Notes under the pieces: generated by a model
Database searches by the model: none
Told to the model about the DNA's origin: nothing
The model's input: only the letters and a program-made list of their open reading frames with translations
Program-made: the position numbers and the translations under genes
Origin: an uncultured Fretibacterium sp.
Lineage (GTDB): Bacteria > Synergistota > Synergistia > Synergistales > Aminobacteriaceae
Assembly: GCA_946186205.1 (NCBI GenBank)
Contig: CAMHMH010000011.1
Coordinates: 1-46,406 of the forward strand
Direction of reading: 5' to 3'
DNA: 46,406 nt
Shown here: positions 16,363-44,164 of the stretch, one piece after another
Numbering within the stretch: position 1 is the stretch's first letter
How the letters are laid out: each line of letters starts with the position of its first letter

Positions 16363-19116
16363 ATGGCAATTTTTGAAGTCGGAAAAAGCTACACGCACAC
16401 TGTTCTCGTAAGAGACAGCAACGGCAACAAATCAACACGCACTGAGATTTATACCATCACAAAACGCACTCCCTGCTATGTTACTTTCTACCACATTGCT
16501 TGGAGCGGAAGCAAGATGCCTCACGGCAGATGCAAGATATTAACGGCTGAACCCTTCGGGGAATATATACATCTCGGTGTGCTTTCAGGGTATTTATATG
16601 CTGAGAATATCGTCAATGACGATTCACAGCCCGAAGCCGCTGAAATGCCCGCAACTGCCGAAATCACTCCCGCTACCGACAATGATAACGCATTGGCCTC
16701 ACAGCCCGCGAGCGTCGCAAGCTCTCAGAGTGAGACGAATGATGACGCAAAATCGCTCCTCGATGCTGATTACTTCAAAGGAAAATCCATTGACGAAATC
16801 AAACGCGCTTTTTCCCCCGCTTCTCTCAAACAGCTTAAAGGATTCGCGCTCTGCTATACTATCCCTTACTTCAACCGCATGAACAAAAAACAGCTCATTG
16901 ACGCGATCGCAAGCAAAATTTCTCTCATCCTCGAAGAACGCAAAGGCTATATGACGGCAGAGAATGTTACCGGCGATAACGGCTACGCACAGCAGGATGA
17001 TATTATCATCACCGCTACTAAGCCTCGCACCATTCCTGAACCTGTCAGAGTCAAATTCATTCCCGGCACTGTCTACGCTGGCAACGACTCCGGCAATCAT
17101 TTCCCAGTCAAAATTACCGCAAGAAACGCTGACTTTCTTACTACCGATTTCATTGGCGCATACATCAAAAACGCTAAAATTCAGACCATCGCGGGCGTTG
17201 AGCATGCTGTCTTCCCGATGCAGTACCGCAATATTGAGATTTGGGCCGATAAGCCTGAACTGCCCGAACCCGTTCAGAGTAAGACAAGTACACAGCACGA
17301 AATCACACAGCCCGATAATCTATACGATGACGGCTCATTCTCCGATGCTCCCGGCGATAACTCCGAATGTGCAAGAAATCAGGATTTCCCCGTTGACATT
17401 CCCGAACGCCGCGAACCAGACTCAATACCCGCTGACAATCCCGGCTTTACCGTCGTTCCTCATGACAGAATGCACATCACCCGCCCAGATTACACAGTCT
17501 ACCCGGACGCTATCCATGACAATATTCCATGCGTAAACGTTCCGGCTTGCGAGACTCTGACTCTCGCTTCCGACGCCGTCAATCCGCTTTTCTCCCTCAA
17601 TTTCTTCTTCGCTCACTGTCTCTTCCTCTTCAGACTCTTCTGCGCGTCTTTGCATTCAAACTTGATTCCCTATATGTTGCGTGATTCGTTTACCGAATTT
17701 TACCCCTCACACGTCAAAGATTTCTACGCAGACAAAAATCATTTTCCCGCTCCTTTTCTCCTCCCTTGCCCTCGATGCGGCTCCCTTGAAAAACCTGTCT
17801 TCGCTCATCGCTTCTATTTCGACAACGTTACAAATAACCTCGTCGAAATGCTCATAGTGAACTGTCCTCATTGCGGGTATACAGAAAACTCTACAATCTT
17901 CTCTGCAAAACAAGATCATTCTTATTCTTGTTACTGGGGAAATGACACAAAAGCCGCCATTACTCTCGCTGAAAATTGGAATTCATGCGGCTTGCGTAAA
18001 CAACACAAAAAACTAGAAGCAATTCACATCTGCCCGCCTCGCAGCAAATACTTCAACCATGCTCGCAAGCTAAACAAAATGAAACTTGACGCTTGCTCCG
18101 ATTTTCAATCGCTGTTCAGTCTCATTCTCACACTTCGGGCTGAGAAAATTCTGAGTCAGGCTACATACATGCGATTCAAATTAACTTCATCTGATAACGC
18201 TGAAGCTTTAGCTAGAGAATTGGCTCATGCCATCATTCAGCGCAGAGAAAAATCTACGCCCGTTCACGCTGAAATCAACGACATCACGCCCGTAAAAGAT
18301 TGGGACAAAATCATTGCTGACAATACCAACTCCATCATCAATTTTGACTATGACGACTTCAAACACGTCAAACACGCAGGCAAAATACACGACAGAATCA
18401 ACAGCCACAATTACGCTCTCGTTAACGCTTGCGAGTCTCTTGACGATATACGTATGCTCCTCGCCGGAGTCAGTAAACCCGCTTTAATCGGCATCATGCG
18501 ACTCACCGCTGATTATTTCGGCACTTGCGGAGACTACCACGAAAAGGAGATGGACAATATTCCCCACATGATTGATTCACTCATCGAACGCATTGACTAT
18601 TGCAGAAAGGATAAAGCATACTGGACTCAGCTCAAACAGGAAAAATCACAAACAGAGCAAGCACAGCCAAAAACGCGCAAGCCTAATCCCGCTCCGGCTT
18701 CTGACATCGAACACAAACTCATCGAGACAAAGGACTTGCACTTCTCCGAAAAACGCGACGCTCTCGACCATAACGCCGCTGTCATTTCCTCGTGCATGTT
18801 CCACGAAGCTATTGTATCCATGCTCTTGAAGATTTCTCCCGCCGCTATCTTTCAGCTCGGCATGCACATGGGCTTGTTCATCGCAAAACCCAAAGGCAAA
18901 AAGATTGTCATTGCTGAGGCATTCGCAAAAAGGCTCATCGAACACAGAGAATTACACGCTGTGAAGTTCGCTAGTGTTCATACTCACACTGCACAGCACA
19001 CTTCAAATAATACCGCTGGCATTCCTCATAACGTCAAATTCTTTGAGACTAAGCACGGGCAATTGACATTCATCGAACCTAAAGACAGGCAGTTATACTT
19101 CGTGTTCACTGACTAA
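16363..19116 (+). CDS. 917-aa protein of unknown function with SAP-like and Lar-like zinc-ribbon regions
   Basis: ATG follows AAAGGAAG. Visible parts: a beta-rich N-terminus to about residue 85; a low-complexity linker; residues 131-186 (LLDADYFKGKSIDEIKRAF and LKQLKGFALCYTIPYFNRM then KKQLIDAI), a helix-extended-helix of the SAP/Rho-N kind that usually binds DNA or RNA; a long linker; a hydrophobic stretch near 407-440; a zinc ribbon from 468 (LPCPRCG, then NCPHCGY near 500) ending AENWNSCG, the layout of Lar-type anti-restriction proteins; and helical C-terminal regions. It is opposite to the late genes, has its own operators and is the only large plus-strand gene. Possible accessory or defence factor (inference). 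Confidence 0.8.
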   Translation: MAIFEVGKSYTHTVLVRDSNGNKSTRTEIYTITKRTPCYVTFYHIAWSGSKMPHGRCKILTAEPFGEYIHLGVLSGYLYAENIVNDDSQPEAAEMPATAEITPATDNDNALASQPASVASSQSETNDDAKSLLDADYFKGKSIDEIKRAFSPASLKQLKGFALCYTIPYFNRMNKKQLIDAIASKISLILEERKGYMTAENVTGDNGYAQQDDIIITATKPRTIPEPVRVKFIPGTVYAGNDSGNHFPVKITARNADFLTTDFIGAYIKNAKIQTIAGVEHAVFPMQYRNIEIWADKPELPEPVQSKTSTQHEITQPDNLYDDGSFSDAPGDNSECARNQDFPVDIPERREPDSIPADNPGFTVVPHDRMHITRPDYTVYPDAIHDNIPCVNVPACETLTLASDAVNPLFSLNFFFAHCLFLFRLFCASLHSNLIPYMLRDSFTEFYPSHVKDFYADKNHFPAPFLLPCPRCGSLEKPVFAHRFYFDNVTNNLVEMLIVNCPHCGYTENSTIFSAKQDHSYSCYWGNDTKAAITLAENWNSCGLRKQHKKLEAIHICPPRSKYFNHARKLNKMKLDACSDFQSLFSLILTLRAEKILSQATYMRFKLTSSDNAEALARELAHAIIQRREKSTPVHAEINDITPVKDWDKIIADNTNSIINFDYDDFKHVKHAGKIHDRINSHNYALVNACESLDDIRMLLAGVSKPALIGIMRLTADYFGTCGDYHEKEMDNIPHMIDSLIERIDYCRKDKAYWTQLKQEKSQTEQAQPKTRKPNPAPASDIEHKLIETKDLHFSEKRDALDHNAAVISSCMFHEAIVSMLLKISPAAIFQLGMHMGLFIAKPKGKKIVIAEAFAKRLIEHRELHAVKFASVHTHTAQHTSNNTAGIPHNVKFFETKHGQLTFIEPKDRQLYFVFTD

Positions 19117-19159: not shown

Positions 19160-19581
19160 GCTATCATCACTAACTCTCGCCGGCGGGCATAAAATGTACT
19201 CCGTACCCAGCTCGTTATCCTCAAAAATTCGCTTACAGTTAGACCGTCTATATAGTGCTCCGTTAATATCCTCAGCAAGTTTCGTGAACTCGTTACTGTG
19301 ATTATTTCTCCGTTCCGTAAATCCTCTCTCAATCTCTCGACCGCACAAACTCGCCGCTTTATTCGTTTCAGTTTCGATTCCAGTCCTTCCGCCCTCATCA
19401 CATACGACAGCACAGGATCTCCGCTCCCGGATGAATACCCTTCCGCATATCTCATTCCGGCCATGTCTCCGCATTCCCTCAGTATGTCTAATTCTTCCTG
19501 CACTCTTAACGCTGACTCTACGTTCCGTCGATAGCTGCGCAATACTTTCTCCGTGTACTTGTACCATTCCTCATTTGTCAT
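19138..19581 (-). CDS. ArpU/sigma-like late transcription regulator
   Basis: 147 residues, helical. The N-terminal half has long helices (YKYTEKVLRSYRRNVESA..., ESKLKRIKRRVCAVERL); the C-terminal half (ILTEHYIDGLTVSEFLRITS, VRSTFYARRRELV) reads as a sigma region 4-like helix-turn-helix: LxxxY-dgls--eia---- followed by S--t-YR/FYRRR. This is the plan of ArpU/RinA-family phage late activators. It stands at the end of the RusA-methylase group and upstream of packaging genes, the usual place. GGAGG precedes ATG. Confidence 0.7.
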   Translation of the reverse strand: MTNEEWYKYTEKVLRSYRRNVESALRVQEELDILRECGDMAGMRYAEGYSSGSGDPVLSYVMRAEGLESKLKRIKRRVCAVERLREDLRNGEIITVTSSRNLLRILTEHYIDGLTVSEFLRITSWVRSTFYARRRELVMIAGEYLRA

Positions 19582-20275
19582 TCGTTACCTCCAGCGGCAA
19601 TTTACCGTCCGTCAGTTTCTTGTAACGTTCCCGAATAATATCGCAGTACTCGGAGCTGATCTCCATCATCAGACATTTCCGCCCGGTCATTTCGCACGCT
19701 ATCAGTGTCGTGCCCGAACCGCCGAAGCAATCAAGTATCACGTCATCAGGCTGTGTGAAGTCTTCTAGTATTCTCATGTGAAGCTCTACGGGCTTTTGAT
19801 TAGGGTGTATCTTCTCATTCAGGGATTTATCCCCTTCTCGCAAAAATCCGTTCCATTTCTGCACATATTTCCGTATCCTCGTGCTGACATTTGACCACGC
19901 TAATTCACCGTCTCCAAATGATATTTTTTCGCTGTTCTTGTCTTTGTCCCAATACAGCCAACCGCATGTCGCCGGTAATATGTCCGTGAAATTCTGTCCT
20001 CCCCAAATTATTTGATACGGAGCTATCGTTCGGATTATTCGCCAATTCTCTTTAAACATGTCCGTGCTTGTGTCTCCTATTACCGCCGAATAATCTCTTG
20101 TGCCTCCTCCCAATGTTCGCGATTTCGCTTTTACGCTCCTAATTCCGTACGGCGGATCCGTCAGCACTAAATCAACCTTCACTCCGTCTACGAGACTCAT
20201 AACATCTTCACGACTCGTAGCATCTCCGCACATCAGCTTGTGCCGCCCTAACTCTATTATTTCTCCATACTTCAT
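19571..20275 (-). CDS. DNA methyltransferase, beta class (probably N6-adenine)
   Basis: 234 residues. DPPY (motif IV) near residue 40 precedes the SAM-binding motif FGGSGTT near 190, the order of beta-class amino-methyltransferases; NQKPVELHMRIL and the LMMEISSEYCDII strand complete the fold. DPPY usually goes with N6-adenine methylation. No restriction enzyme is adjacent, so it is an orphan phage methylase that may protect DNA or regulate. It overlaps the ArpU-like gene by 11 bases. Confidence 0.88.
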   Translation of the reverse strand: MKYGEIIELGRHKLMCGDATSREDVMSLVDGVKVDLVLTDPPYGIRSVKAKSRTLGGGTRDYSAVIGDTSTDMFKENWRIIRTIAPYQIIWGGQNFTDILPATCGWLYWDKDKNSEKISFGDGELAWSNVSTRIRKYVQKWNGFLREGDKSLNEKIHPNQKPVELHMRILEDFTQPDDVILDCFGGSGTTLIACEMTGRKCLMMEISSEYCDIIRERYKKLTDGKLPLEVTNDK

Positions 20276-20284
20276 GGCTACGTA

Positions 20285-20680
20285 TTACCCTCCATTCACT
20301 AACATTTCACACGGTCTTGTATATTCGCTTATCGTCATTTCTACACAGTCCCTTATTCCCTCTTCCTTGTGCGCTACCATTCCCCATATCTGACTGTCAT
20401 CACGGATTATTCCGGCCTTCTCTATGCAATCCAGAAGCGATTTCAGCCGATTGTCTATGTCCCATCGCCGTTTGCCTCTGAACCTGAATACTATTCTCAC
20501 TTCAACATGCCCGGTATACGGATCGCCTTCCCACGAACTGCGCATCATCCCGGCTGTCTCTTCCTGCCAGTCTCTTACCTCCGGGCGTTTGTACCTCGTT
20601 CCGTATTTCCCCGTTCGGTACATCTCGTTTACTGTCGGCGGCAATCCTGCTAATTCTATCCTCAGCAACTCGCTAATCAT
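20285..20680 (-). CDS. rusA: RusA-type Holliday junction resolvase
   Basis: 131 residues from the ATG at 20678-20680 (a GTG two codons earlier is possible). It carries PPTVNEMYR near the start, then WDIDNRLKSLLDCIEKAGII followed by RDDSQI, the RusA signature with catalytic aspartates. It resolves branched DNA before packaging. First gene after the leftward promoter and the origin. Confidence 0.92.
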   Translation of the reverse strand: MISELLRIELAGLPPTVNEMYRTGKYGTRYKRPEVRDWQEETAGMMRSSWEGDPYTGHVEVRIVFRFRGKRRWDIDNRLKSLLDCIEKAGIIRDDSQIWGMVAHKEEGIRDCVEMTISEYTRPCEMLVNGG

Positions 20681-20713
20681 AATCACTTCTTTTCTTTTCT
20701 CTCGGTATCACCT

Positions 20714-20897: not shown

Positions 20898-21174
20898 TTG
20901 TCGTACTTGTCGTACTTACTCGTAAACCCTTGATACAACTAGCTTTACAGATTTCGACACTTGTCGGACTTGTGTCGTACTTTGTCGGACTTTGTCGGTC
21001 TTCTGTCAGCATCTAGGTTTTCAGTCATGCCCTATGTTTATAGACTTCTTGTCGTAATTGTCGTACTCGTCATAAATCCAGTCAGCAACAGTACTACGAC
21101 AAACTACGACAAAAAGTACGACAAAAATAAACTCATAAACATTGATGAATACAGTACTACGACAAGAACGACAA
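20898..21174. other. Iteron array, probable origin of replication
   Basis: Copies of TTGTCGTACT or close variants: 20898, 20907, 20961 (TTGTCGGACT), about 20972 (GTGTCGTACT), 20982, 20992 (TTGTCGGTCT), 21049 (TTGTCGTAAT), 21058. Inverted copies: ACTACGACAA at 21093, 21103 and 21156, AGTACGACAA at 21115, AGAACGACAA at 21165. The left half is all direct and the right half all inverted, making a large dyad, followed by an AT-rich stretch (21174-21200). It fills most of a 570-base gene-free gap beside the primase-helicase, and strand composition flips here. Confidence 0.8.
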
Positions 21175-21208
21175 ATATATATATTTTAGGAAGTATAAAA
21201 CTCAAAAG

Positions 21209-21245
21209 AAAAAAAAATCCATAAGAGAAATTTCTCCTATGGATT
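21209..21245 (-). terminator. Terminator of the primase-helicase gene
   Basis: AATCCATA-A-GAGAAATTTCTC-C-TATGGATT is a near-perfect inverted repeat; on the minus strand it is followed by nine T. It ends transcription just before the iteron array. Confidence 0.88.
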
Positions 21246-21260: not shown

Positions 21261-23201
21261 TTATTCTTCGGGCAGTCCGTAAGTCCCGTAGCCTGTCTTG
21301 AGGATCTGCCCTTCCTTTGCGAGCCTCTGCAAATTCTTCTGAGCTGTTTTTGCATCAAGGCCGTAGAAGTCTGCGAGCTGCATGGGAGTAACGGAAATAT
21401 TCTCTTTGAGGAAGTCTAGTATCTGCTTTTTCCATTCGGGGATGAAGTCATCTGCGTCGCCCTGAAGCACCCATCCGAAGCCGTCTAGCTTCATGATGAA
21501 GTCTTTTTCCTCAACGTCGCGGCCTGTACGTCTGAGAGTGCCCATGACGGAGTTCCGTTCGCGCTTAAGGCTGAAAATGGTATCAGCGGCGCCCGCGATG
21601 CCCTGAGAGCCAGAGATCTCGCTTAACCAGTCTCCCTCCATGCCCTTTTTGAGGTGGTGAAGGAGGACGACAGCGACATGATGATTATCAGCGATGGATT
21701 TAATGTTGCTGACGGTCTCGTAGTCTTCAGAGTACATACTGCCTTTGCCGGACAATTGCTTTCTGAACATCTGGAGTGTGTCGATGATGACGAGCCGCGC
21801 ATCCTTGTGAGCTGACAGCCAGAAGTTAATCAAGTCAGTGCCGCCGACGTGCTGTCGAGCAGTCTGAGTAATGAGAGTGAGGTTAGAAAGATCATCATCA
21901 CAATCACCGAACGCGCCGTTATTGATACGATCCTGAAGTCTGCGTAAAGTATCTTCGAGAGCGAGATAAAGCACCCTTCCTTTCTGGACAGGAATTTTGC
22001 CTAGTACGCATCCGCCGATGGCCACGCCGACAGCTAGATGCAACGCGAGAATGGACTTGCCTACTTTGGGACCGCCCGCGAGAATGGACAGGCCTTCAGG
22101 AAGGAAGCCGTCGACCGCCCACTTGATAGGAGGGAAGACGGTAGAGCGCAAATCCTGAGCATTAACGATGACGGATTTTTGAATGATGGATTTGATGTTG
22201 TCCGGGACGAGGGCGAACGAGATTTTGTCATTGATGAAGTTGCGAGCGTAATTGTCGCCGTGAAGGATGGCAAAATCATCCCAGTCAGTGCCGTCATCTG
22301 GGCTGTTGAAAGTGGGGAAAATGAAATCAGCGACGAGGCCAGAATTTTTGCAGAGAGTAGCGGCATCAATACCGGGGTTAAAACCTCTGTTAATTTCAGT
22401 AGCCTTATCATTATCAGCGGTAATAACAATTTTGCACAGCGGGAACGTATCGTGCAAGATTTGAGCAATCTCCGGTAGCTTATGACAGGTGATAGAAGCG
22501 ACGGAAGGTTTACCCGTGAGCTCATAAACTTTAGCCATAGTAGCGAAGCCCTCGCCGAGAAGAATAACGGCCTGCGAATCCTTTTTGAGAGTATCGAGAC
22601 CGACGGACCAGAAGAGCCCGTCTAAAGGAGCTTCAGGGAAGAACCTTTTATCGCCGTTCTGAAAGATGCGCTGAACGGACTGAACGATGCCGTTAATATC
22701 TCTGAGAGGAATGGTGAGAATACGCTCCTGACCGTTATCAAAGAGTCTAGTACCGTAAGGGAAGACCTGTTTTAGCTGAAGGTAGGGGAAATCTTCAGGA
22801 GCTGGGGTGCAGTTGTCGAACTGAGCGCGGGCCTTAGCGGAAGCCTCAGCCTGTTTGTGTTTAAGTTCGAGTTCTTTTTTCTTTCTGACATCATCGAGAT
22901 GAGCCTTGAAAGCAGGATCGTCAAATTCCTTTTTCTGTTCAGGATTAAGGCCGTCGGAAGGGAAATGCCAATTGATTTTATTTCTAGTGTGCCAGTCCAT
23001 AGCCCAGCCGATAGGCCATTTGTCAGTGTAGACGCAATAAGCGCCGGAAGTTTGACCGTTCTTGTCATCGTTGAGCTGGTAACGGTGAATGCGACCGTCA
23101 ATTTTGATGATGATGGATTTGACTGGAGCGAGATTATTTTTATCGAGGAAGTCGAGAAAGAGTCTCTGGATCTCCGCGTCGTCAGGTAAAAGAATAGCCA
23201 T
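21261..23201 (-). CDS. Toprim primase / RepA-like helicase, 646 aa
   Basis: Start chosen as ATG at 23199-23201, 11 bases after AGGAGG; an upstream in-frame extension to 23378 is hydrophobic and lacks a site. N-terminus (DGRIHRYQLNDDKNG, SGAYCVYTDKWPIGWAMDW) resembles TraC-type primase starts. Toprim region near residues 250-340: LLGEGFATM and KIVITADND. RecA/RepA-type ATPase from about 410: GGPKVGKS, LVIIDT, LLHHLKKG. The last 60 residues form a winged helix (VTPMQLADFYGLDAKTAQKN), which could bind DNA. It primes and unwinds DNA. Beside the iterons this recalls P4 alpha, which unites primase, helicase and origin binding. Confidence 0.88.
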   Translation of the reverse strand: MAILLPDDAEIQRLFLDFLDKNNLAPVKSIIIKIDGRIHRYQLNDDKNGQTSGAYCVYTDKWPIGWAMDWHTRNKINWHFPSDGLNPEQKKEFDDPAFKAHLDDVRKKKELELKHKQAEASAKARAQFDNCTPAPEDFPYLQLKQVFPYGTRLFDNGQERILTIPLRDINGIVQSVQRIFQNGDKRFFPEAPLDGLFWSVGLDTLKKDSQAVILLGEGFATMAKVYELTGKPSVASITCHKLPEIAQILHDTFPLCKIVITADNDKATEINRGFNPGIDAATLCKNSGLVADFIFPTFNSPDDGTDWDDFAILHGDNYARNFINDKISFALVPDNIKSIIQKSVIVNAQDLRSTVFPPIKWAVDGFLPEGLSILAGGPKVGKSILALHLAVGVAIGGCVLGKIPVQKGRVLYLALEDTLRRLQDRINNGAFGDCDDDLSNLTLITQTARQHVGGTDLINFWLSAHKDARLVIIDTLQMFRKQLSGKGSMYSEDYETVSNIKSIADNHHVAVVLLHHLKKGMEGDWLSEISGSQGIAGAADTIFSLKRERNSVMGTLRRTGRDVEEKDFIMKLDGFGWVLQGDADDFIPEWKKQILDFLKENISVTPMQLADFYGLDAKTAQKNLQRLAKEGQILKTGYGTYGLPEE

Positions 23202-23344
23202 GAAGAGAATGCGCCTCCTTGTAGTAATGGAGAGCTGATACTCTAGAAAGTGTTGATTGTGGTAGAATGGACATACCAAAACGATCAAACTAAACAAAAA
23301 TATCAGCTCGCCCCATGTCCGAAACCCGCAAAGTCTAAGGATAT

Positions 23345-23366
23345 GGGGAAAAATTTTATGTTCCCC
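23345..23366. repeat. Inverted repeat GGGGAA/TTCCCC
   Basis: Six-base arms around a ten-base AT-rich loop, in the 190-base leader of the primase-helicase gene. It could be an operator or an attenuator. The rest of the leader (23202-23384) shows no clear promoter. Confidence 0.4.
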
Positions 23367-23384
23367 AAATGATAACATGCGGGT

Positions 23385-23424: not shown

Positions 23425-23598
23425 TTATTTGATGGTGTAACGTCTGTTCCAGAGTTTGCGAGCTTTTTTCGGGTTGTCCACGAAGGGAGTACTGTTGCCG
23501 CAGAAAGTGCAAGCGGCGAAAAATTTAACCTCGCAGAAAGTGGAGAATATTTTTGCTGATCCGCCGCAGAAGGGGCAGCGTTTAAGCGTCTGTGTCAT
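23425..23598 (-). CDS. Lar-like zinc-ribbon protein, 57 aa
   Basis: Begins MTQTLKRCPFCGGSAKIF; a second knuckle CTFCGN near residue 30; ends KKARKLWNRR. The order CPFCG ... C--CG ... A---WN-R is that of the Lar restriction-alleviation family. A second copy lies directly upstream, overlapping by 17 bases. Lar proteins reduce type I restriction of incoming or newly made phage DNA; that role here is inferred from family likeness. Confidence 0.75.
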   Translation of the reverse strand: MTQTLKRCPFCGGSAKIFSTFCEVKFFAACTFCGNSTPFVDNPKKARKLWNRRYTIK

Positions 23599-23848
23599 GT
23601 GCGTGATCCTCTGAGCCGTCAATGCGTTTGTTCCAGATTTTTCTAGCTCCGTCCAGAGTGATGTATTTGCCCGCTCTGCGAAAAGGAGTAGCAATGAGGC
23701 AGTGTCTGCACTGAACGTATCCGTAAATGTTTCCCGGTACTCTTTTTTTTGAGTTAATCCAGTGGGTTGTATCGACGAATGTAGCTTTGTGTCCACAAAA
23801 AGGACATGGTAAAAGCGTATCGTTGATAGCCAGTTTGTTATTAGTCAT
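23582..23848 (-). CDS. Lar-like zinc-ribbon protein, 88 aa
   Basis: DTLLPCPFCGHKATFVDTTH near residue 10, second knuckle QCRHCLIATPF, then ARKIWNKRID. Same family signs as the next gene. The start codon overlaps the stop of the ATPase gene (ATGA). Probably tandem-duplicated anti-restriction genes. Confidence 0.75.
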   Translation of the reverse strand: MTNNKLAINDTLLPCPFCGHKATFVDTTHWINSKKRVPGNIYGYVQCRHCLIATPFRRAGKYITLDGARKIWNKRIDGSEDHAHDTDA

Positions 23849-31963: not shown

Positions 31964-34900
31964 TTAGCGTATAAACCTGTCAGCGAGCTGATGAAAATAT
32001 CTCTCAGCCTTGCGCAAATATTTTCTGTCGTCTGCGCTGATCCACTTCAAGAATTGAGCCTTTTCTTTCTCGTTAAGACCGTGCAGAGGGTTCATAGCGT
32101 TCATGCTTTGTTTAAGTCCCTGTTTAGAGCCGTCAGCTTGAGAGTATTCGCGCAAAAATCTTCTTAGAGCTTTCCTGTCGTTGTATCTGAGAGCCTTCTT
32201 GATGTTAGCGAGAATGCGCCCGCGTCTAGTAGAGGCAAAACCGTCAAAATGCTTGTCTAGGACTTCATTCTGAAACTGTCTTACGCGGTCTAAAGTTTGC
32301 CAGTAAGCGGCCTCGTCGGTATCCTGCGAGTAGATGAACATTTTCGATGCTTCCTGAGCGTTGCTGTGAGGAATGCCCCTAGCAGCTTTATACGGCCACG
32401 CGAGACCGAACGACCTTGCGACATACTCGGCTGGGTCTCTGATGGTGGAGGGGTTAAAGGCATTCGGGAACATGGAACGTCCCATAGCTAACTCAATGGG
32501 CATTTTGATAGCTGGATTAAGTCCGTTGATGACCTTGCTGAAAGGAGCTTGAACGATTTGCTTCAGCCACGAGCCTATAGACTTTTGACCGTTTGCAAAG
32601 TCTTTAGCGTCAAGCCACGCGGAGTCGAGACCAAACCAGTCTACAGCGTCCTGAAACGCGCCGGGTCTATCAAAGTAATAGACTCTGCCGTTGATTTCTC
32701 CGGCGGTAATATGCGGGCGGTATTTTACGTCATTAGGCAAATCGTCGTCAGCGTCAGGGAAGACAAAGCGGTTGAACATCTGCATAGCGATAGTAAGAGC
32801 CATGAGCTTGGCAACAGACTGTCCAGCTGAAAGAGCGTAAAGAGGCATGGCCGCGAGTTTGCCAACACCGAGATTTTTGACCTGCTGCGCGCCGTAACCG
32901 TACTTGAAGCCGTTTTTGAGTAATCTATATGTACGTCTCATGTTGACTTCCATCCACGAATAGAAGGGTATCAGCATATCGCGCAACTGTTTTCCGACTT
33001 CTGAGACCTGATCATACGCGCCGAGTAATTCATTGCTCATCTTGAAAGCGCGTTCCTTAATATCAGAAATGCTCATAACTTCTTCTTCAATGGACGCGCC
33101 CCAGTTGTTTGGCCTTCCGTCTTTGTTTGTCTCCATCTGCTGCTTGTAGTCAAGATAAGCGGCGAAACGGAGTAGATGTTCACGCCATTCAGTGAAGGAG
33201 TGTTCAGCGTTGAACAAAGCGCGGATAGGTTTCAATCCCTTGTTCCATATAGATTTGATTTTGCCAGTGTCTTTTTCAGTTTCCATTCCGTCAAGAAAAG
33301 ACACGATAGCCTGAGCATCTTTAGCAGATAAATTGAGGGACTGAATACCAAGATTGCCTGACAGCCTGATATAGTCCTGCAAGTCCTGCGAAGCCTCGTA
33401 GCCTTCCTTGCCGTGATGAGTGTACCATCCCGTAAGCTCCCTGACCGCCCGCCCGAAATGCCTTAGTGCTTTAGGGTTGCCAGCGATGAGAGCGTCAAGG
33501 TCTCCCGTGAAGTTTCTGATGTTATACAGCAAGTTACGTGTAGGCGTGAACAATACAGAACGTTTCCACCAAGTAGTGAAGTCTTTTGCGGCTTGTCCGA
33601 GCATGCCGCGGTGTCTTGACTTAGCCATTTTGCGCAGGGTGTTGGCAATCTCCGTAGGAATGACCATGAGATTATTATCATTTTGGATGCCTAATCTTTC
33701 GAGAAGCTCATCAACTGGGAAACCGTGCTGTTCGGCAATGTCATTAGCAACCATGTGCATAAGGTTTTCGGGCGCGGATTGAGCGGTTTCAATGAGTCTG
33801 GTAGCGGTAGGGTCAAAAGCCTCGTAGCCTTCCGGGATAACATCATGAATAGTTTTCTGTTCTTCATCACCGCTCTGGCTAAAAGTCTGCGAACCGTCGT
33901 AATCAATCTCTAACTGCTGAGACTTAATGCCGTACTGTTTGCGCAAGCGTGGGGCGATGTCATGATTTTTCGTTATGTATTCGAGAGTCTTCATAGTCTC
34001 AATGTCTTGCGCGAGTTGCGCGCGTACTTCAGCATTGGCCTGAACGTAATCTGTAACGTAATCTTGCAGAGTGCCTTTTCTTTTCTTGAAGAAAGAATGC
34101 CCCATAATAGCGTTGATTTCTCCGTCATACCTGTTCTGAATATCGAGATTGCCTTGTGCTGACGGAGTACGTTTGCCGCTTCTAGCCGCGTCGAGGTACT
34201 GAATGACTCTGCGCCTGAAGTAATTGGGGTAGTGGAACAAGTCGTCCATATTGAGACCTAAAGCGTGAGCGTGTTTTTTGAACTCCTCAACCTGAGCATT
34301 TCTAGTATCGTCAAGCTGTTTAACCGCGTCCCTGACCTGTTCGTCCCGGTCAACCATGCGAGCGAGTTCAGCATTCATTTTTCTAGCGTCCTGCTGAGAC
34401 AGTCCGAACGACAGCGGAGAATTAGGCATTTCTTCAATCTGATCGATAACGTCGCGAATAACGGTGTAAGTGTTGAGCAGTTCGCGCTGTTTCTGGTTAA
34501 GCGGGCTGATGATGTCGGTCATGACGGAAACGGCTTTGTCAGCGGCGGCGACTTTAGCGCGCCCCAAGTTTCTGAAAGCCTGTAACGCCTCGTTGAGGTG
34601 TAAATTCGGGTCATTCTTGCGAGGCGATAGAGTGATGTCTGAATAATCGCCTCCCTTGACGGATTGAGCAATATCCCTGACGGCCTGTCTCATTCTGCCA
34701 ATCATGCCGAGTCTCGGAGGTGTTTTCATGGCCTCCATGAATCTACCCTGAATTTCCTGCGTAGGGAACGGGAGACTGCGCCAGTCAGTAGCATGTTTAG
34801 GAAGTCCGACTCTGGCGACGCTGTGGAAGAGATTGCCCGCCCAATTCTTAGCCTTGCCGAACCATCGCGAGAACCATCCCTGCGGGTCAAGCCCAGACTG

Positions 34901-37900
34901 CCTGAACTCCTGAAAGCCCTGCGGGTCAGAGTAAGAAGAGAGCTTCTGCCCTTGTTCGTTGGATTGATTGAGGTTGAAATTTTTCCCGCCCGTAAAGATG
35001 TGGTCAAAGACCTTGCGCATAGGTTCAGACACATAAGGCTGGCTGATACGTCTTCCATTAGCGTTAGTGTAGAAAATATCCCTAGCTTTTCTGTAAAGAT
35101 TTCCGAGCCAGTTTTTGAAGTTATTGAAGACCTGCCGCAACTTAGCAGAGATGCCTTGAGGAGCTTTGCCCTGTCTAAGATACTGTTCGAACATGGCGGC
35201 GTTTTTCTCCTGCGAATTTCGCCATTTAGCATTATCTTGAGGGGATAATTTTTGCGAGAAATCGACACCGAGCATCCCCGCTTCGCTTCTGATGGTCTGC
35301 CAGTCGTCAAAGAGTTTAGAACCTTTTTTGATGAGTCCAGCATTTGCGAGTCGTTTAATTTTTTCCTCGTAAATGTGCCAGAACTCATGAGGGACAGTAG
35401 ATACGTCAGATTTCTTGAAGAGGGACAAGATAGTTTGAGCTTCAAAGATAGGATTGCCGTCAATGCCCATTTCCGGAATGATTTTAGTGCTTCCTCTGTC
35501 GCCGTTATCGCCCTGCTTATTGACTTTGTTGATGATGAGATTATCAGCCATAACCATATCAAGGAGAGACACGCCCGACTGTGAAGCAAAATATTTGTTC
35601 ATAGCCATGTAAATTTGCGAATCAGCGTCGGCAACGGTATCAACTTCTCCGGCATTAATAGCCTTCATCATGACGAGTCTGCGCAATATCTCTTCAGTAG
35701 GATTTTTGCTGAAGTCAATATCCATATCGCTGTCATTGTCATAAGTGAAAGCGAGTCTGAAATCTTTTTCGAGACGTAGAGCGGAATAATTTTTGACTAA
35801 TGGATTATCTTCACTGCCCTCGTTGATAAAGAACTGGTTATTCTGCAAGTCGTAAGTAGCAAAGAAATTGCCGTTTTGGTCAGTAATGCCGACATAGTGC
35901 CGCCCGTCCTGCGTACCAAAGAAAGCGTGAAGAGGAACGGAATTATCGCCTGCGGCAATCTGAATGTCGCCTAAGTAGCCGTTATAGCCCGTAAGTTTAG
36001 CGTCGTAAGAATATTTTTCTGGATTATTGTTGCTTGGCGCGGAGGTATCGCGCTCGCCGTGCCTGGCGAAAATATATCGTGTAGCGGATTTTCCAGTTCT
36101 TGCGGCATTCTTTATTTGCTCCTGCTCCGAAGGGATGAAAGACCTCTGAACCCTTGCGCCCCTAGCGGTAATGTCTCCTTCTTTTGTTCTGATGGTTTCG
36201 GGAGGCAAATAGTCATCAGTTTTTGAGCGTTCCTGCTGGTTGTTAATATAGTCGAAATTCTGAGCTGAATTGTCCTGTGGTTTAGGTAATTGCTGCTGGT
36301 TGCTGTCCTGTTGATTAGCGGAATTATTAAGTTGCTGTAGTAACTGTTTGAGCCTTTTCGGATCAGGAACGACGTAACTCGGTAAACGTTGAGTCTCTGG
36401 ATTGGTCTGCCAATCATTAATAACATATGCTTTAGTTAATCCCTGCTTATGTATATATTCAGCGACTTGATTGTTTAAGTCCTGCGGAAGAGAGCCCATA
36501 TAAGCCCAAAGAGATTCGACGGAATATTTATCGTGAGGATTTTTATCAAACTCATCATTGATAACTTGCAAAGCCCCTCTTAAAGCCTCATCAAAAGGCG
36601 AAAGTTTTTGCTGATTATCATTCTGAGTTCTGTTGAGAGCTTCAGCGGTGTGAGTGTCCTCATTATTATTCTGTTCGGACTGGATTAATCCAGAAATATC
36701 AGCGTATTGAGGGACGGCAAAAGAATTATCTTGCGAGTTGTCCTGCTCTGCGGTGATTTGTCCTTGCGCCCTCTGGTTATTGAGGTTGTTAGCAGTAGAA
36801 ATGTTATCTTGATTGCCTTGCGCGGAGGAATTTTGCAGTTGTCCCCTCTGGTTAGTGACTTGGCTTCTGTTGCCGATGTAACTGCCTAAGTTGCCGTGCC
36901 CCTGATTATCGTTGAGATTAGGTGAATTGCCCTGTGTTTTTTCGGTCAGCTGTTCGTTGCCATACTGTTGCTGAAGAGCGGAAATGTCAGCGTTATTCTG
37001 AGCTGTTGAAATATGTTCTTGCTGATTTCCGTTAAGACCGATAGTGTCCCAAGAGTTATAAGCCTCTCTGTTTTGCGGAGTAGGGTAAAGCCTCAAGTCG
37101 CCAGTGTTAGAGCTTTCGGAGTAATCCGGGGCAGATTTGCTTTGCTGAATTTCCTCGTCGTAAGAATTAATCTGCCTGTTATGTACGAGATTAGCACCCT
37201 GTTGAGAGTTGTCGAACAAGCTGGCAGTAGTATTCCCTTCAGCGAAGTCGAAAGCCTCCTGCAAAATCTGCATTTTAGTTTTCTGCTTCTGATTGTTGAA
37301 AGTGAGTTGCCCGGTGTCAAGCCTAGCGGCGGCTTCGTCAGCGTAGTAATTGAAAGCGGTAGTGATACGTTTAGCACTTCTGATGTATCTTTCGCAGAAT
37401 TTAGCAATGGCTTCAGCTTCTTTAGATGTGTAAGAAACGATATTGCCCTGCGACACGACAGCTTCCACGTTAGTATGATTTAGTTTAGCCTCAGTGAGAA
37501 TTTCAAAAGCGCGTTTAATGTCGTCTCTGAGGGACAAAGAATTGTTTGCGCGAATGGTATCTTGATTGTCGGTTCTATTGTTAGCGGCTTCAAGCTGAGC
37601 TTGGAAAATGGCAATTTTCGGAGCGGCTTTGATGATGGCATTGCTGAAATTTTTTACCGGGTCTTCACTGCTTAATACTTCATTAATGCGCTGAAGGATG
37701 TCAGTATCGCCGTAAGCCTTAGCAAACAGAGTATTTTGAATGCGCTCCAAGCCCGATTTAGAAATTTTAACATCACCGCTGTAAGAATTAGCCTGAATGA
37801 AGTCAGGAAGCTCAGATTTGTCAACGATAGCACTGGCATAAGCGCGAATGAAATCCTGCTGAGATTCAATATCTTTGTCAGGATTGAAAGTTATCAAAAT

Positions 37901-40426
37901 CTCTGGCGTGAGTTTATCAACGTCATCGAGAGCGCGTTCAGTTTTAGAGAAAGTAGCCTGAGAGCTTTTATTAGCCTCTCGAGTGAAAGCTTTTCTGTCA
38001 GCCTGCGACCATCTTTCACGGACAAGTATGGGACGTTCAATAGCGTCTACATCTTGAGGGTTAAGTCCGAACTCGTGAGCGTGTTTAATGAGATACCTGC
38101 GGTAATGCTCAGCCATAGAAGAGCCATCTGGATTATGAGACATATAAGCCTTTAGCAAGGCCAAAGTTCTGCCGTTGCCGCTTTCAACTTGACCGTCCGA
38201 GCCTATAATGGGTGCGCCGTCTGACGCAAAGGGGTTAGCAGTGAGCAAAGAGGGGTCAATATCTTGAGCCATGTTATCGACGGCGATTCTTGAAGCAATA
38301 TTTTCCCTCTGCCTGTTCTGCAAAGACTGGTCATAGTGAGGATTTTTGCCGCCGTTAAGTTTATGGGAAGTGATGAGCTTGCGAACGTCAATGACTCTGT
38401 ATCTAACGGCGTAATGCTTGTTTCCAGCCTTTACGATAGCGTTACTCCCCATAGGTGAATTATCGACATCATGATTATGAGAAGTCAGATTGTCCAGCTT
38501 GAATTGAGAAAAATCCTCATTGTCAGAGATTTTATTCTGCGGAACAGTCTGCTGATTGTTTTCAGATTTACCCTGCTGTTGTTCTTGATTTTGAGTCTGC
38601 CTTTCGTTTGGCACATGTCCTTCAGGAATATCCTGCTCCTGCGGAGAAATCTGTGCGTCCCTGTTGACAGGGAAGTAGTCCGAATAGTAGTCATCATCAT
38701 AATACGCTTCATTACTGCCCAAAGCCATAATGCGCGGAGATTTAGTTGTCTGCTGAGTGAGGTTATTATTTTGCGTAGGCAAGAGAGCCTGCAAATCGAT
38801 TGCATCACGTATTACCGCTGGCCTAGAGTTATCCGGCCTGATGTGTTCAGTATTAGGAGCTGTAATGTCAGGCAGAATCTGAACAGTATTAGCAGGAGCG
38901 ATATTTGGTGTAATATGCTCAACTTCAGGTACAAGATTATTTTTGCTTGTTTGAGCAATGGCTCTGAGAACGCTTTGATAGTCGAAATCTTGATTAGCCT
39001 GAGCGTTTTTGAACTCATGGAAGGAGAGAGGAGAGCTGTAAGGCTGATTTTGCCCTGATATGTATTGAGCATAACTTTCGGGAATATCCTGCTCAGGGTT
39101 AGAATTATCGTTGCCGAAGTCAGAATAATCAAGGTCATCAAGGAATGCTTCATTAGTTCCTAAATCCATAATTGTTGGATTTTGTTGTGTTTCGTTAGGC
39201 TGAGTCGCGTACTGCAAAGGCTGAGGCTGTAGAAGTCCCTGCAATCGTTCAATTTCTGAATCAGCGCGTTGAATTTTCTTGTTGATGTCATCAACGAGTG
39301 CCTGATTATACCACGGGGTTTTAGTTTCCGCCTGTAATTTGCTCTGCAAAGTTTGCCTATTGCTGATTTCGCGTTGAAGTTGAGCAATAGTGCTTTCTCT
39401 GTCAACGTTTCTGTTTCTGTATTCAGCCATGACATTAGAGCGTATTTTAGGATTTGCCATAGCCGCGCCGCCGGTAAGGAGAGACGTAAGGAGGGAAGAA
39501 CCTGCGACGGACGGAGCGAGCTGAACGAAATCATTGCCCCAGTCGCCTGCGCGCTGAGTTAAAGCGGTTAAGAAATTGCCGCCGTTGTTGAGAGAGTCCT
39601 GAGTAGCTTTCTCGATGGTCTGCTGTGAAGGCTCTTGCAGTAACTCATTACCGATTTGGCCGAGAGTGTTGACGGCAAATTTAGTGAATGGATTTCTGAT
39701 GTTCCTCGTGAGAGGGGAGAAATGTCCGCCGACATAGTTTAATCCTGCATTAAGGAGAGCATTAGCAGCAAAAGATTTATTAGCGGCGGCGAGACCACCG
39801 TCGTCATATTTGCCCTGCCTGTAAGCATCACCGAGAGTCCCGCCAGACTCAGAAAGGGCTTCAGTAGCCCCAGCGGCTATTAATCCTGCGAGAACGACCC
39901 CTACCGGTCCCAGCCCTGCGAGACTTGCCAAAGCACTCGCGCCATAACCCGCGCCCATGAAGCCGAGAGAAGATCCAGTACCTTCGGCGACCTGCGTACC
40001 GTAAGAGGTATTATCGCCGACGACTTCATTGCGTAACTCTGTGAGATTATCATCGATATAGTTCTGAGCTTCTAGAAGCCCTTTTGTGCCGGAAGTGAGC
40101 CAAGAGTCTTGGTCAGGGTAAAGCTGCTTAGCGACCTCGAGAGGAACGCCCAAAGCGGTGAGATTTCTGCGTTCATCAGCTTGAGAGCCGCTCCACGGAG
40201 AAATATGTTCTACGCCCGCGCCGATAGAGCCTAAAATCTGAGCGATGCCGCCTGTGATGGTATTGTTGAGCATTCTGCCCGCGCCAATGCCGGCCGCGCC
40301 GAGCCAAGTGCCTAACCCCTGTTCGTTATCATCCTGCGGGACGACATTCTGCAAGTTAGGAGCAACATAGTTCGGGTCAGAATGTTTCTTTTTGAGCTGT
40401 AGAATTTGTTCGTCTATGAAGTTCAA
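31964..40426 (-). CDS. Giant polyvalent ejection protein, 2820 aa
   Basis: Probably enters the cell with phage DNA. N-terminus to about 330 has glycine- and alanine-rich hydrophobic stretches (LGAAGIGAGRMLNNTITGGI; LAGLGPVGVVLAGLIAAGAT), fit for a membrane channel. Residues 420 and 567 begin a duplicated element (IMDLGTNEAFLDD; IMALGSNEAYYDD), each followed by QDIPE. About 650-850 is a DdrB-like ParB-fold domain (IGSDGQVESGNGRTLALLKA). Q/N-rich linkers follow. HEFWH at 1680-1684 is a zincin site. The end from about 2270 (WWKRSVLFTPTRNLLYNIRN ... FYSWMEVNMRRTYRLLKNGF) resembles LPD38. This is the polyvalent-protein plan, thought to shield incoming DNA and process host factors. Confidence 0.82.
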   Translation of the reverse strand: MNFIDEQILQLKKKHSDPNYVAPNLQNVVPQDDNEQGLGTWLGAAGIGAGRMLNNTITGGIAQILGSIGAGVEHISPWSGSQADERRNLTALGVPLEVAKQLYPDQDSWLTSGTKGLLEAQNYIDDNLTELRNEVVGDNTSYGTQVAEGTGSSLGFMGAGYGASALASLAGLGPVGVVLAGLIAAGATEALSESGGTLGDAYRQGKYDDGGLAAANKSFAANALLNAGLNYVGGHFSPLTRNIRNPFTKFAVNTLGQIGNELLQEPSQQTIEKATQDSLNNGGNFLTALTQRAGDWGNDFVQLAPSVAGSSLLTSLLTGGAAMANPKIRSNVMAEYRNRNVDRESTIAQLQREISNRQTLQSKLQAETKTPWYNQALVDDINKKIQRADSEIERLQGLLQPQPLQYATQPNETQQNPTIMDLGTNEAFLDDLDYSDFGNDNSNPEQDIPESYAQYISGQNQPYSSPLSFHEFKNAQANQDFDYQSVLRAIAQTSKNNLVPEVEHITPNIAPANTVQILPDITAPNTEHIRPDNSRPAVIRDAIDLQALLPTQNNNLTQQTTKSPRIMALGSNEAYYDDDYYSDYFPVNRDAQISPQEQDIPEGHVPNERQTQNQEQQQGKSENNQQTVPQNKISDNEDFSQFKLDNLTSHNHDVDNSPMGSNAIVKAGNKHYAVRYRVIDVRKLITSHKLNGGKNPHYDQSLQNRQRENIASRIAVDNMAQDIDPSLLTANPFASDGAPIIGSDGQVESGNGRTLALLKAYMSHNPDGSSMAEHYRRYLIKHAHEFGLNPQDVDAIERPILVRERWSQADRKAFTREANKSSQATFSKTERALDDVDKLTPEILITFNPDKDIESQQDFIRAYASAIVDKSELPDFIQANSYSGDVKISKSGLERIQNTLFAKAYGDTDILQRINEVLSSEDPVKNFSNAIIKAAPKIAIFQAQLEAANNRTDNQDTIRANNSLSLRDDIKRAFEILTEAKLNHTNVEAVVSQGNIVSYTSKEAEAIAKFCERYIRSAKRITTAFNYYADEAAARLDTGQLTFNNQKQKTKMQILQEAFDFAEGNTTASLFDNSQQGANLVHNRQINSYDEEIQQSKSAPDYSESSNTGDLRLYPTPQNREAYNSWDTIGLNGNQQEHISTAQNNADISALQQQYGNEQLTEKTQGNSPNLNDNQGHGNLGSYIGNRSQVTNQRGQLQNSSAQGNQDNISTANNLNNQRAQGQITAEQDNSQDNSFAVPQYADISGLIQSEQNNNEDTHTAEALNRTQNDNQQKLSPFDEALRGALQVINDEFDKNPHDKYSVESLWAYMGSLPQDLNNQVAEYIHKQGLTKAYVINDWQTNPETQRLPSYVVPDPKRLKQLLQQLNNSANQQDSNQQQLPKPQDNSAQNFDYINNQQERSKTDDYLPPETIRTKEGDITARGARVQRSFIPSEQEQIKNAARTGKSATRYIFARHGERDTSAPSNNNPEKYSYDAKLTGYNGYLGDIQIAAGDNSVPLHAFFGTQDGRHYVGITDQNGNFFATYDLQNNQFFINEGSEDNPLVKNYSALRLEKDFRLAFTYDNDSDMDIDFSKNPTEEILRRLVMMKAINAGEVDTVADADSQIYMAMNKYFASQSGVSLLDMVMADNLIINKVNKQGDNGDRGSTKIIPEMGIDGNPIFEAQTILSLFKKSDVSTVPHEFWHIYEEKIKRLANAGLIKKGSKLFDDWQTIRSEAGMLGVDFSQKLSPQDNAKWRNSQEKNAAMFEQYLRQGKAPQGISAKLRQVFNNFKNWLGNLYRKARDIFYTNANGRRISQPYVSEPMRKVFDHIFTGGKNFNLNQSNEQGQKLSSYSDPQGFQEFRQSGLDPQGWFSRWFGKAKNWAGNLFHSVARVGLPKHATDWRSLPFPTQEIQGRFMEAMKTPPRLGMIGRMRQAVRDIAQSVKGGDYSDITLSPRKNDPNLHLNEALQAFRNLGRAKVAAADKAVSVMTDIISPLNQKQRELLNTYTVIRDVIDQIEEMPNSPLSFGLSQQDARKMNAELARMVDRDEQVRDAVKQLDDTRNAQVEEFKKHAHALGLNMDDLFHYPNYFRRRVIQYLDAARSGKRTPSAQGNLDIQNRYDGEINAIMGHSFFKKRKGTLQDYVTDYVQANAEVRAQLAQDIETMKTLEYITKNHDIAPRLRKQYGIKSQQLEIDYDGSQTFSQSGDEEQKTIHDVIPEGYEAFDPTATRLIETAQSAPENLMHMVANDIAEQHGFPVDELLERLGIQNDNNLMVIPTEIANTLRKMAKSRHRGMLGQAAKDFTTWWKRSVLFTPTRNLLYNIRNFTGDLDALIAGNPKALRHFGRAVRELTGWYTHHGKEGYEASQDLQDYIRLSGNLGIQSLNLSAKDAQAIVSFLDGMETEKDTGKIKSIWNKGLKPIRALFNAEHSFTEWREHLLRFAAYLDYKQQMETNKDGRPNNWGASIEEEVMSISDIKERAFKMSNELLGAYDQVSEVGKQLRDMLIPFYSWMEVNMRRTYRLLKNGFKYGYGAQQVKNLGVGKLAAMPLYALSAGQSVAKLMALTIAMQMFNRFVFPDADDDLPNDVKYRPHITAGEINGRVYYFDRPGAFQDAVDWFGLDSAWLDAKDFANGQKSIGSWLKQIVQAPFSKVINGLNPAIKMPIELAMGRSMFPNAFNPSTIRDPAEYVARSFGLAWPYKAARGIPHSNAQEASKMFIYSQDTDEAAYWQTLDRVRQFQNEVLDKHFDGFASTRRGRILANIKKALRYNDRKALRRFLREYSQADGSKQGLKQSMNAMNPLHGLNEKEKAQFLKWISADDRKYLRKAERYFHQLADRFIR

Positions 40427-43234: not shown

Positions 43235-43239
43235 GATGA

Positions 43240-43500
43240 TTATTTCCCCCTTGCTGTTTTTTGGTCTGGATTGCTTGCTATGTTTCCTGATGTGATGCCG
43301 CCGAGCCAGCCTAGCGGGTTATTGTTCTGGTTTATCCATCCGGGCGTTTGATACCCTCCGCCGCCGCTTAACTGCCCGTAAGCGTTCATTCCCGCACCTA
43401 AAGCAGTAAGCCACGGAACACCCATAGCAGTCCCCGCCAATCCTGCGACATTCCCCAATGCGCCCAGCGGGTTAGAGCCTTCTACGTATTTCACCGACAT
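43240..43500 (-). CDS. Small ejection/internal virion protein, 86 aa
   Basis: Glycine-rich with hydrophobic patches (LGALGNVAGLAGTAMGVPWL, TALGAGMNAYGQLSGGGGY). Short, alanine/glycine-rich proteins before large internal proteins are common in podoviruses. It shares ALGNVAG with the 929-aa protein. The switch in codon ending lies between these two genes. Confidence 0.6.
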   Translation of the reverse strand: MSVKYVEGSNPLGALGNVAGLAGTAMGVPWLTALGAGMNAYGQLSGGGGYQTPGWINQNNNPLGWLGGITSGNIASNPDQKTARGK

Positions 43501-43504
43501 CTCA

Positions 43505-44164
43505 TCACTTCCCCTGCTGGACTACTGTGTCATAGTCTTCCCGCATGTCGTAGCTTGACTGCATAGCCTTCCACAGGTTGAACGCCGGAGTAAGCCCCGC
43601 GCCCGCTCCTTCATACGCCTGATTTGGTATCGCTCCCAGCCCTGCAACGCCCTGCATCAATGCTCCCGTATTCGCCTGTTGTCCCTGCAATGCCGTACCC
43701 AAGCCGTTTATTGTCGCGTTATATGCGTTTAAGTAGTTGCGGTTGTATGCGTCCGCCGCGCTCTGTGAGAGATTGTTTATCCCCTGACCTGTGATTGAGC
43801 TGTTGATTACCCCTCGCGAGGAGAGATTATTCAGCATACTTCCCATACTGGATTTCAGCCCTTGATTTACGCTCGCGTTTAGATTATCCGTTACTGCTGA
43901 AGGTATATTGCCCGTTCTTGCGATCTGCGCTATTTCATCTGTTATTCCGTTTGACCTGTTCAATGCTCCCGGCAATTGAGACATTAATTCTTTCTGCTGA
44001 TTTAGTGCTTGATTTGCCGTATTCTGCGCATTCGTCCAGTTGTCCGCGCTGAAACTCTGCAACCCCGGCATTACCGCGTTGTACAGCCCTGTGCGTATGT
44101 TCGTTAATTGCGCTGGCTCAGGGTCTCGCTTCTGTATTCTTGTTGTGCTTCCTCCGCTGCCCAT
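43505..44164 (-). CDS. Internal virion/ejection protein, 219 aa
   Basis: Begins MGSGGSTTRIQKRDPEPAQL and is rich in A, N, Q and G with long helices (AQNTANQALNQQKELMSQLP; SSRGVINSSITGQGINNLSQ; SAADAYNRNYLNAYNATING). This style, including SSRGV-NSS-TGQ-...LSQ-AADAY, is shared by P22- or T7-like first ejection proteins. Placement before the other ejection genes agrees. Confidence 0.75.
   Translation of the reverse strand: MGSGGSTTRIQKRDPEPAQLTNIRTGLYNAVMPGLQSFSADNWTNAQNTANQALNQQKELMSQLPGALNRSNGITDEIAQIARTGNIPSAVTDNLNASVNQGLKSSMGSMLNNLSSRGVINSSITGQGINNLSQSAADAYNRNYLNAYNATINGLGTALQGQQANTGALMQGVAGLGAIPNQAYEGAGAGLTPAFNLWKAMQSSYDMREDYDTVVQQGK

Follow-up and report, generated by a model that had tools for sequence, protein, structure and literature searches.

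In RSF1010, the helicase, the primase and the iteron-binding initiator are three separate proteins (RepA, RepB' and RepC, respectively), and gp4 of phage T7 is, to our knowledge, without a winged helix and without an iteron origin. Origins of the PICI/SaPI Pri-Rep-ori type are located directly 3' of the initiator-helicase gene and comprise two iteron sets and an AT-rich region (PMC6092414), and the C-terminal domain of the SaPI Rep helicase reads the iterons, as was shown for Cch2 (PMC7581432). In the RepA_N/ori modules of PLE, the DNA-binding domain and the origin covary, and the origin-directed nuclease Odn of ICP1 may select for diversification (PMC8263062).

Here, we describe an iteron array in a tailed phage and conclude, with a probability of roughly 0.87, that it represents the bidirectional theta origin of this circularising phage and that the adjacent Toprim-helicase-winged-helix protein is the phage's own initiator; no binding or autonomous replication data are available. 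The window, i.e., the whole stretch of DNA analysed (46,406 b), is the entire contig C11 and corresponds to a complete-looking tailed phage, with genes for terminase, portal, major head protein, tail/M23 protein, holin, M15 endolysin and antirepressors. To the left and to the right of 21 kb alike, almost all of its genes are encoded by the - strand. The contig ends (1 and 46406) join into one open frame of 316 aa with tail-fibre-like text, and the phage genome is therefore probably circular or circularly permuted. No close DNA relatives of the window were found among phage records, nor was any RNA family or tRNA found within it. The replication module is flanked by genes for a Lar-like restriction-alleviation protein (23425-23796) and a DNA methyltransferase (19571-20275), while elsewhere an ORF of 2820 aa (31964-40426) matches only PHROGs of unknown function (5143, 2299 and 14693).

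The iteron array and its surroundings

The initial annotation of this DNA reported thirteen copies of a ten-base motif within 277 b, eight in one orientation followed by five in the other, a count that proved exact, with independent motif refinement arriving at the same 13 sites (8 + 5) (Table 1). A motif scan of the whole window identified 20898-21174 as the sole cluster: with at most one mismatch, 17 matches occur in the 46.4 kb, twelve of them within the 277 b, where 0.03 would be expected from the outside rate (Poisson P ~1e-27). The best 8-mer cluster likewise numbers 13 in the array, compared to 6 in shuffles, and none of 60 further 450-b segments that were examined exceeds 5. The paired iteron motif has no other occurrence in the host assembly, and a search of viral contigs with the exact iteron pair of the window returned one match, a chance one inside a coding gene, so that no satellite carrying these iterons was found. 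Furthermore, neither a second array nor an iteron cluster at the primase promoter was found in the window, which therefore lacks a pair of repeat regions like the ori and crr of P4 and gives no indication that the iterons serve autorepression.

Table 1. Coordinates of the features discussed in the text
Feature	Position	Strand	Remarks
Primase-helicase-initiator (putative)	21261..23378	-	705 aa as called; Toprim, RecA-type AAA_25/DnaB_C, C-terminal winged helix; recognition helix LDAKTAQKNLQRL
RusA-like Holliday-junction resolvase	20285..20686	-	RusA-like gene after array in several relatives too
Iteron block A	20898..21067	+	eight TTGTCGTACTT-type iterons: 20898, 20907; 20961, 20972, 20982, 20992; 21049, 21058
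Iteron block B	21093..21174	-	five inverted iterons: 21093, 21103, 21115; 21156, 21165
AT-rich stretch (TATATATATTTTAGG...)	21175..21235	.	candidate unwinding element; least stable 60 b of window; between gene and array
Intrinsic terminator-like hairpin of primase-helicase gene	21216..21245	-	between gene and array
Shared spacer element TGTATTCATCAATGTTTATG	21134..21153	-	found with matrix from other phages' spacers
Second spacer element AGTTGTATCAAGGGTTTACG	20921..20940	-	contains full match to IHF consensus WATCAANNNNTTR at 20923
Third, weaker spacer element AGTCATGCCCTATGTTTATA	21023..21042	+	gap between quartet and next pair
Return of skew, probable terminus	43235..43505	.	near 43.3 kb; roughly opposite origin on circular map

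The iterons are arranged in groups. In block A they are spaced by 9-11 b inside the groups and by 54-57 b from group to group, while block B consists of a triple, 41 b and a pair; read in the orientation of the gene, the array thus runs pair (9 b), 41 b, triple (12, 10), 39 b, pair (9), 57 b, quartet (10, 10, 11), 54 b, pair (9). The AT-rich stretch that had been noted after the array is indeed, over 60 bases centred at 21202, less stable than any other part of the window.

The spacers of different phages have an element in common (consensus AGTATTCATCAATGTTTATG). A matrix for this element was built from spacers of other phages, aligned by eye, leaving out both the window and its relative G010. 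On the window, its best match scores 27.4 bits, followed by one of 14.4, and corresponds to the shared spacer element of Table 1, while on the 45 kb of G010 the top four matches all fall inside the array. The element bears, by its letters, no more than a loose likeness to IHF/HU sites. As only one of six strict IHF consensus matches in the window falls in the array, this consensus is not array-specific, and a role for IHF or HU is merely a suggestion; one HU/IHF-family gene was detected in the host by the search made.

Strand skew at the array

The GC/AT skew at fourfold-degenerate sites flips its sign between the two same-strand genes that border the array, being -0.53 in 20285-20686 as opposed to +0.64 in 21261-23378. 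A change-point fit placed the switch at 21318 (support 21276-21372, log-likelihood gain 598), where the purine fraction changes from 0.24 to 0.75. Skew driven by transcription was rejected, since same-strand neighbour genes show opposite skew. In a relative with a different iteron (G010:C16, 45,156 b, 61% identical), the skew switch is located at 18300, beside the array, and genes of both strands are in agreement. In both phages the change point falls not at the array centre but within the primase gene, close to its 3' end, i.e., 15-110 nt into the gene in the window and about 90-160 nt in G010. Because the intergenic region offers no fourfold sites, the resolution of the fit is poor, and all that is read from it is that the switch lies at the array or adjoins it. 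The return of the skew near 43.3 kb, together with the joined ends, yields a circular map with two replichores of similar length. As a separate observation, a 917-aa ORF (16363-19116), which lies on the strand opposite to its neighbours and has no significant Pfam or PHROG match, has a composition that tracks its replichore and not its own strand.

The skew flip and the least stable 60 b adjoining the array indicate that this is very probably an origin of bidirectional replication, and we consider it very likely that the array itself is that origin, which the initial annotation had proposed as an inference and which the switch between adjacent same-strand genes, seen again in G010:C16, supports. 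The array could instead constitute an operator or promoter, with the winged helix acting as an autorepressor or as a switch for the RusA-methyltransferase operon starting at 20686, and its position would suit such a function, as the primase gene ends on one side of it and the RusA gene starts on the other; in several relatives, too, the array is followed by RusA. This would, however, leave the strand-skew switch unexplained, and thirteen sites across 277 b would be large for an operator; moreover, no sigma-70-like promoter was found (other promoter types were not covered), and the gene downstream of the array varies among relatives (L024, L032, L142 and L084-L087) while the array stays beside the primase gene. 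We thus regard an operator as improbable; a regulatory side role of the array may nevertheless exist. Some plasmids use iteron-like arrays as centromeres, a precedent for a partition site, and a packaging site may be envisaged as well. However, no ParA/ParB-like match was obtained among the nearby genes tested, the terminase genes are 6-7 kb from the array, and both the switch in skew and the AT-rich edge speak for an origin, so that partition or packaging is the most doubtful of the readings considered.

The putative initiator and its changing iterons

The gene beside the array had been described as encoding a Toprim and RepA-type helicase protein with a C-terminal winged helix, and domain searches indeed recovered Toprim_3, AAA_25/DnaB_C and a winged helix. 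Alignment with homologues suggests that the called start is too early and that the true start is the ATG at 23201, which would give a predicted protein of 646 aa. The AlphaFold model (mean pLDDT 85.9) matches T7 gp4, DnaB and RSF1010 RepA as a whole, the top match being the T7 gp4-type combination of Toprim primase and RecA-type helicase, while the nearest solved chain to the helicase domain by sequence is RSF1010 RepA (1g8y). The helicase is therefore of the RSF1010 RepA-type RecA fold by both sequence and fold, in the absence of hexamer data, and no match to the D5/SF3 helicase Pfam domains (D5_N, DUF5906, Pox_D5) was obtained in the protein. Taken by themselves, the C-terminal 73 residues adopt a winged-helix fold resembling Zalpha and MarR-type domains (TM about 0.7, with E values of only 0.004-0.03).

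About 60 homologous loci were collected from genomes, IMG/VR contigs and phage records; a search of viral contigs with the single protein returned no relatives, whereas an alignment used as query found them. From its named relatives, the window phage is assigned to Synergistaceae (Fretibacterium-like and rumen lineages), bacteria of gut or rumen type, and homologues with an array in the same place were observed in Synergistota, in viral contigs and in cultured phages. A profile score of at least 180 bits was attained by the homologue at 41 loci, and at 29 of these no other segment of the locus is as repetitive as the 450 b that directly follow the 3' end of the gene. The cultured phages with an array beside the homologue (about 25-33% protein identity) are Alteromonas phage XX1924 (TGAACCAG), Idiomarinaceae phage 1N2-2 (TGTACCG), Moraxella phage Mcat1 (CCCTGCACA) and the Streptococcus (S. 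suis) phage phi-SsuZKB4 (GTGACAGC). In L143-L148, the 3' end of the coding frame itself contains the array, which follows the codons of the winged helix and is translated as a low-complexity tail (e.g., SVTPVTPVTPVT). None of seven loci encoding Toprim-only proteins (L091-L097) possesses an array, and no convincing array was found at L141 or at L025 and L026, the latter two encoding close homologues whose C-terminus carries a long extension; the distant Toprim-helicase phages FoX1 and ep3 showed none in the piece read. One contig (G019:C212, locus L039) bears the primase gene and array twice, in identical form and approximately 7.7 kb apart, reflecting either a tandem duplication or a misassembly.

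The sequence of the iteron differs in almost every lineage, and the anatomy of the array recurs: the pair-41-triple and mirrored triple-54-pair arrangement is found with iterons as different as TTTGTCGTACTT, TTTTGCAGGTCTT, TTTTTGAAGGTTTT, TTTGCAACTCTT and TTGTCAGCTT, and close relatives retain both the spacings (9, 41-42, 10-12 ... 53-54, 8-9) and the inversion while their iterons change. The clearest case is provided by L145 (G127), L146 (G093) and L147 (G128), whose proteins show 85-89% identity in the part upstream of the winged helix and hardly differ in the flanks of the recognition helix. Within this helix, L145 shares only one of ten residues with L146 and L147, while the latter two share nine of ten. 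L145 possesses 11 iterons centred on CGTTGCA (one copy being CGTTACA and one CGTTGCG), and L146 and L147 each possess 12 centred on CGTAACA, so that recognition helix and iterons have changed together, all 11-12 iterons differing in the same way. Across 22 loci, similarity of the iteron motif correlates with that of the winged helix (Mantel r=0.45, P=0.0002), but much of this is explained by helicase similarity and the simple Mantel result is not proof of co-evolution. When motif and recognition helix are compared with correction for helicase relatedness, the partial correlation is weak (r=0.17, P=0.04), and the co-change therefore rests mainly on one clean event.

The earlier suggestion that the helicase may be the initiator gains support from these comparisons, as arrays accompany homologues with a winged helix, are absent beside Toprim-only proteins and change with the recognition helix. 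Direct binding remains an inference in the absence of binding data, and we judge it likely that the winged helix reads the iterons. The array might also be an origin whose iterons are read by another phage or host protein that merely recruits the primase-helicase, in keeping with the RSF1010-type plasmids, in which the helicase and the iteron-binding initiator are separate proteins and whose RepA is, among solved proteins, the closest in sequence. The iterons, however, adjoin the winged-helix-bearing gene in very diverse elements with different neighbours, and they change together with the recognition helix, and a separate reader accordingly has only a slim chance of being correct.

Assuming that the primase-helicase is the initiator of the phage, a plausible model of loading and bending, both inferred, can be proposed. 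The C-terminal winged helix would engage one iteron per monomer, and iterons placed one helical turn apart (9-11 b) on the same face, in pairs and in triples or quartets, would nucleate oligomers of the RecA-type helicase, while the shared spacer element, a candidate HU/IHF-type bend site, would fold the outer pair back to the inner group. Since the two iteron groups are inverted, two rings would assemble facing away from each other, and these outward-facing rings may strain the AT-rich edge until it melts. Each ring would then be loaded on one strand, with the fused primase priming its own fork, giving two outgoing forks. A winged-helix/iteron pairing private to each phage would keep an initiator from firing on other replicons in the same cell. 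As a separate observation, the host assembly contains a second homologue (G000:C14:13942-16029; L031:5856-8120) with a 21-copy array of AAATCTCT, on a co-resident element near transposases and another helicase/primase gene; two homologous, predicted initiators with non-overlapping codes coexist in this one assembly.

On balance, we favour a broader interpretation, i.e., that these loci represent a widespread phage replication module of fixed architecture, with mirror-image half-origins round a shared bend element, in which the recognition helix and every iteron change together to give each phage a private origin code. If true, nature would have supplied in them a series of mutually orthogonal initiator-origin pairs, with incompatibility, satellites or origin-directed nucleases as the driving force, although the part of any of these in the diversity seen here is inference only. 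An origin and an initiator can be predicted for a large phage group with none assigned, and several dozen natural winged-helix/iteron pairs, one of them with essentially the recognition helix alone changed, render the DNA-recognition code testable. The question is also raised how a joint change of one helix and twelve iterons leaves replication intact.

Comparison with described replication modules

No report of the family-wide arrangement was found in the literature searched, which did not cover most subscription journals. The initial annotation had likened the protein to P4 alpha, a comparison that holds in part: the Toprim domain is shared (29% identity, E 1e-11), as is the layout of gene, terminator and repeats, given that the P4 crr is located 3' of alpha beyond a terminator and consists of 8-mer repeats in both orientations, with a 9-b pair followed by a 43-b gap. 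P4 alpha, however, combines an SF3/D5 helicase with an N-terminal Zn ribbon, whereas the helicase of the window protein is RecA-type (RSF1010 RepA/T7 gp4-like), and P4 possesses two separated repeat regions (ori and crr) in contrast to the single array of the window. The Toprim primase and RecA-type helicase are shared with T7 gp4, and the helicase domain resembles RSF1010 RepA, its nearest solved chain by sequence, although the three proteins of RSF1010 are here replaced by one polypeptide.

The origin of the window resembles those of PICI/SaPI in being located directly 3' of the putative initiator gene and in possessing two inverted iteron sets. It differs in that AT content peaks at the outer edge and not centrally, in that a RecA-type helicase is fused to a Toprim primase, and in that the window represents an autonomous tailed phage with its own terminase, portal, capsid, tail and lysis genes, and not a satellite or cassette; an arrangement of the origin that had been described as a peculiarity of phage satellites is thus now seen in autonomous phages. 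Judging from the absence of SF3/D5 matches, the helicase class probably differs from the PICI type, no PICI Rep having been compared directly. Compared to PLE, where a few variants of one satellite are known, the initiator is different and several dozen phage lineages are involved. The layout is one already known from PICI/SaPI origins and P4 crr, combined here with a helicase class other than that of P4 and probably also other than that of PICI.
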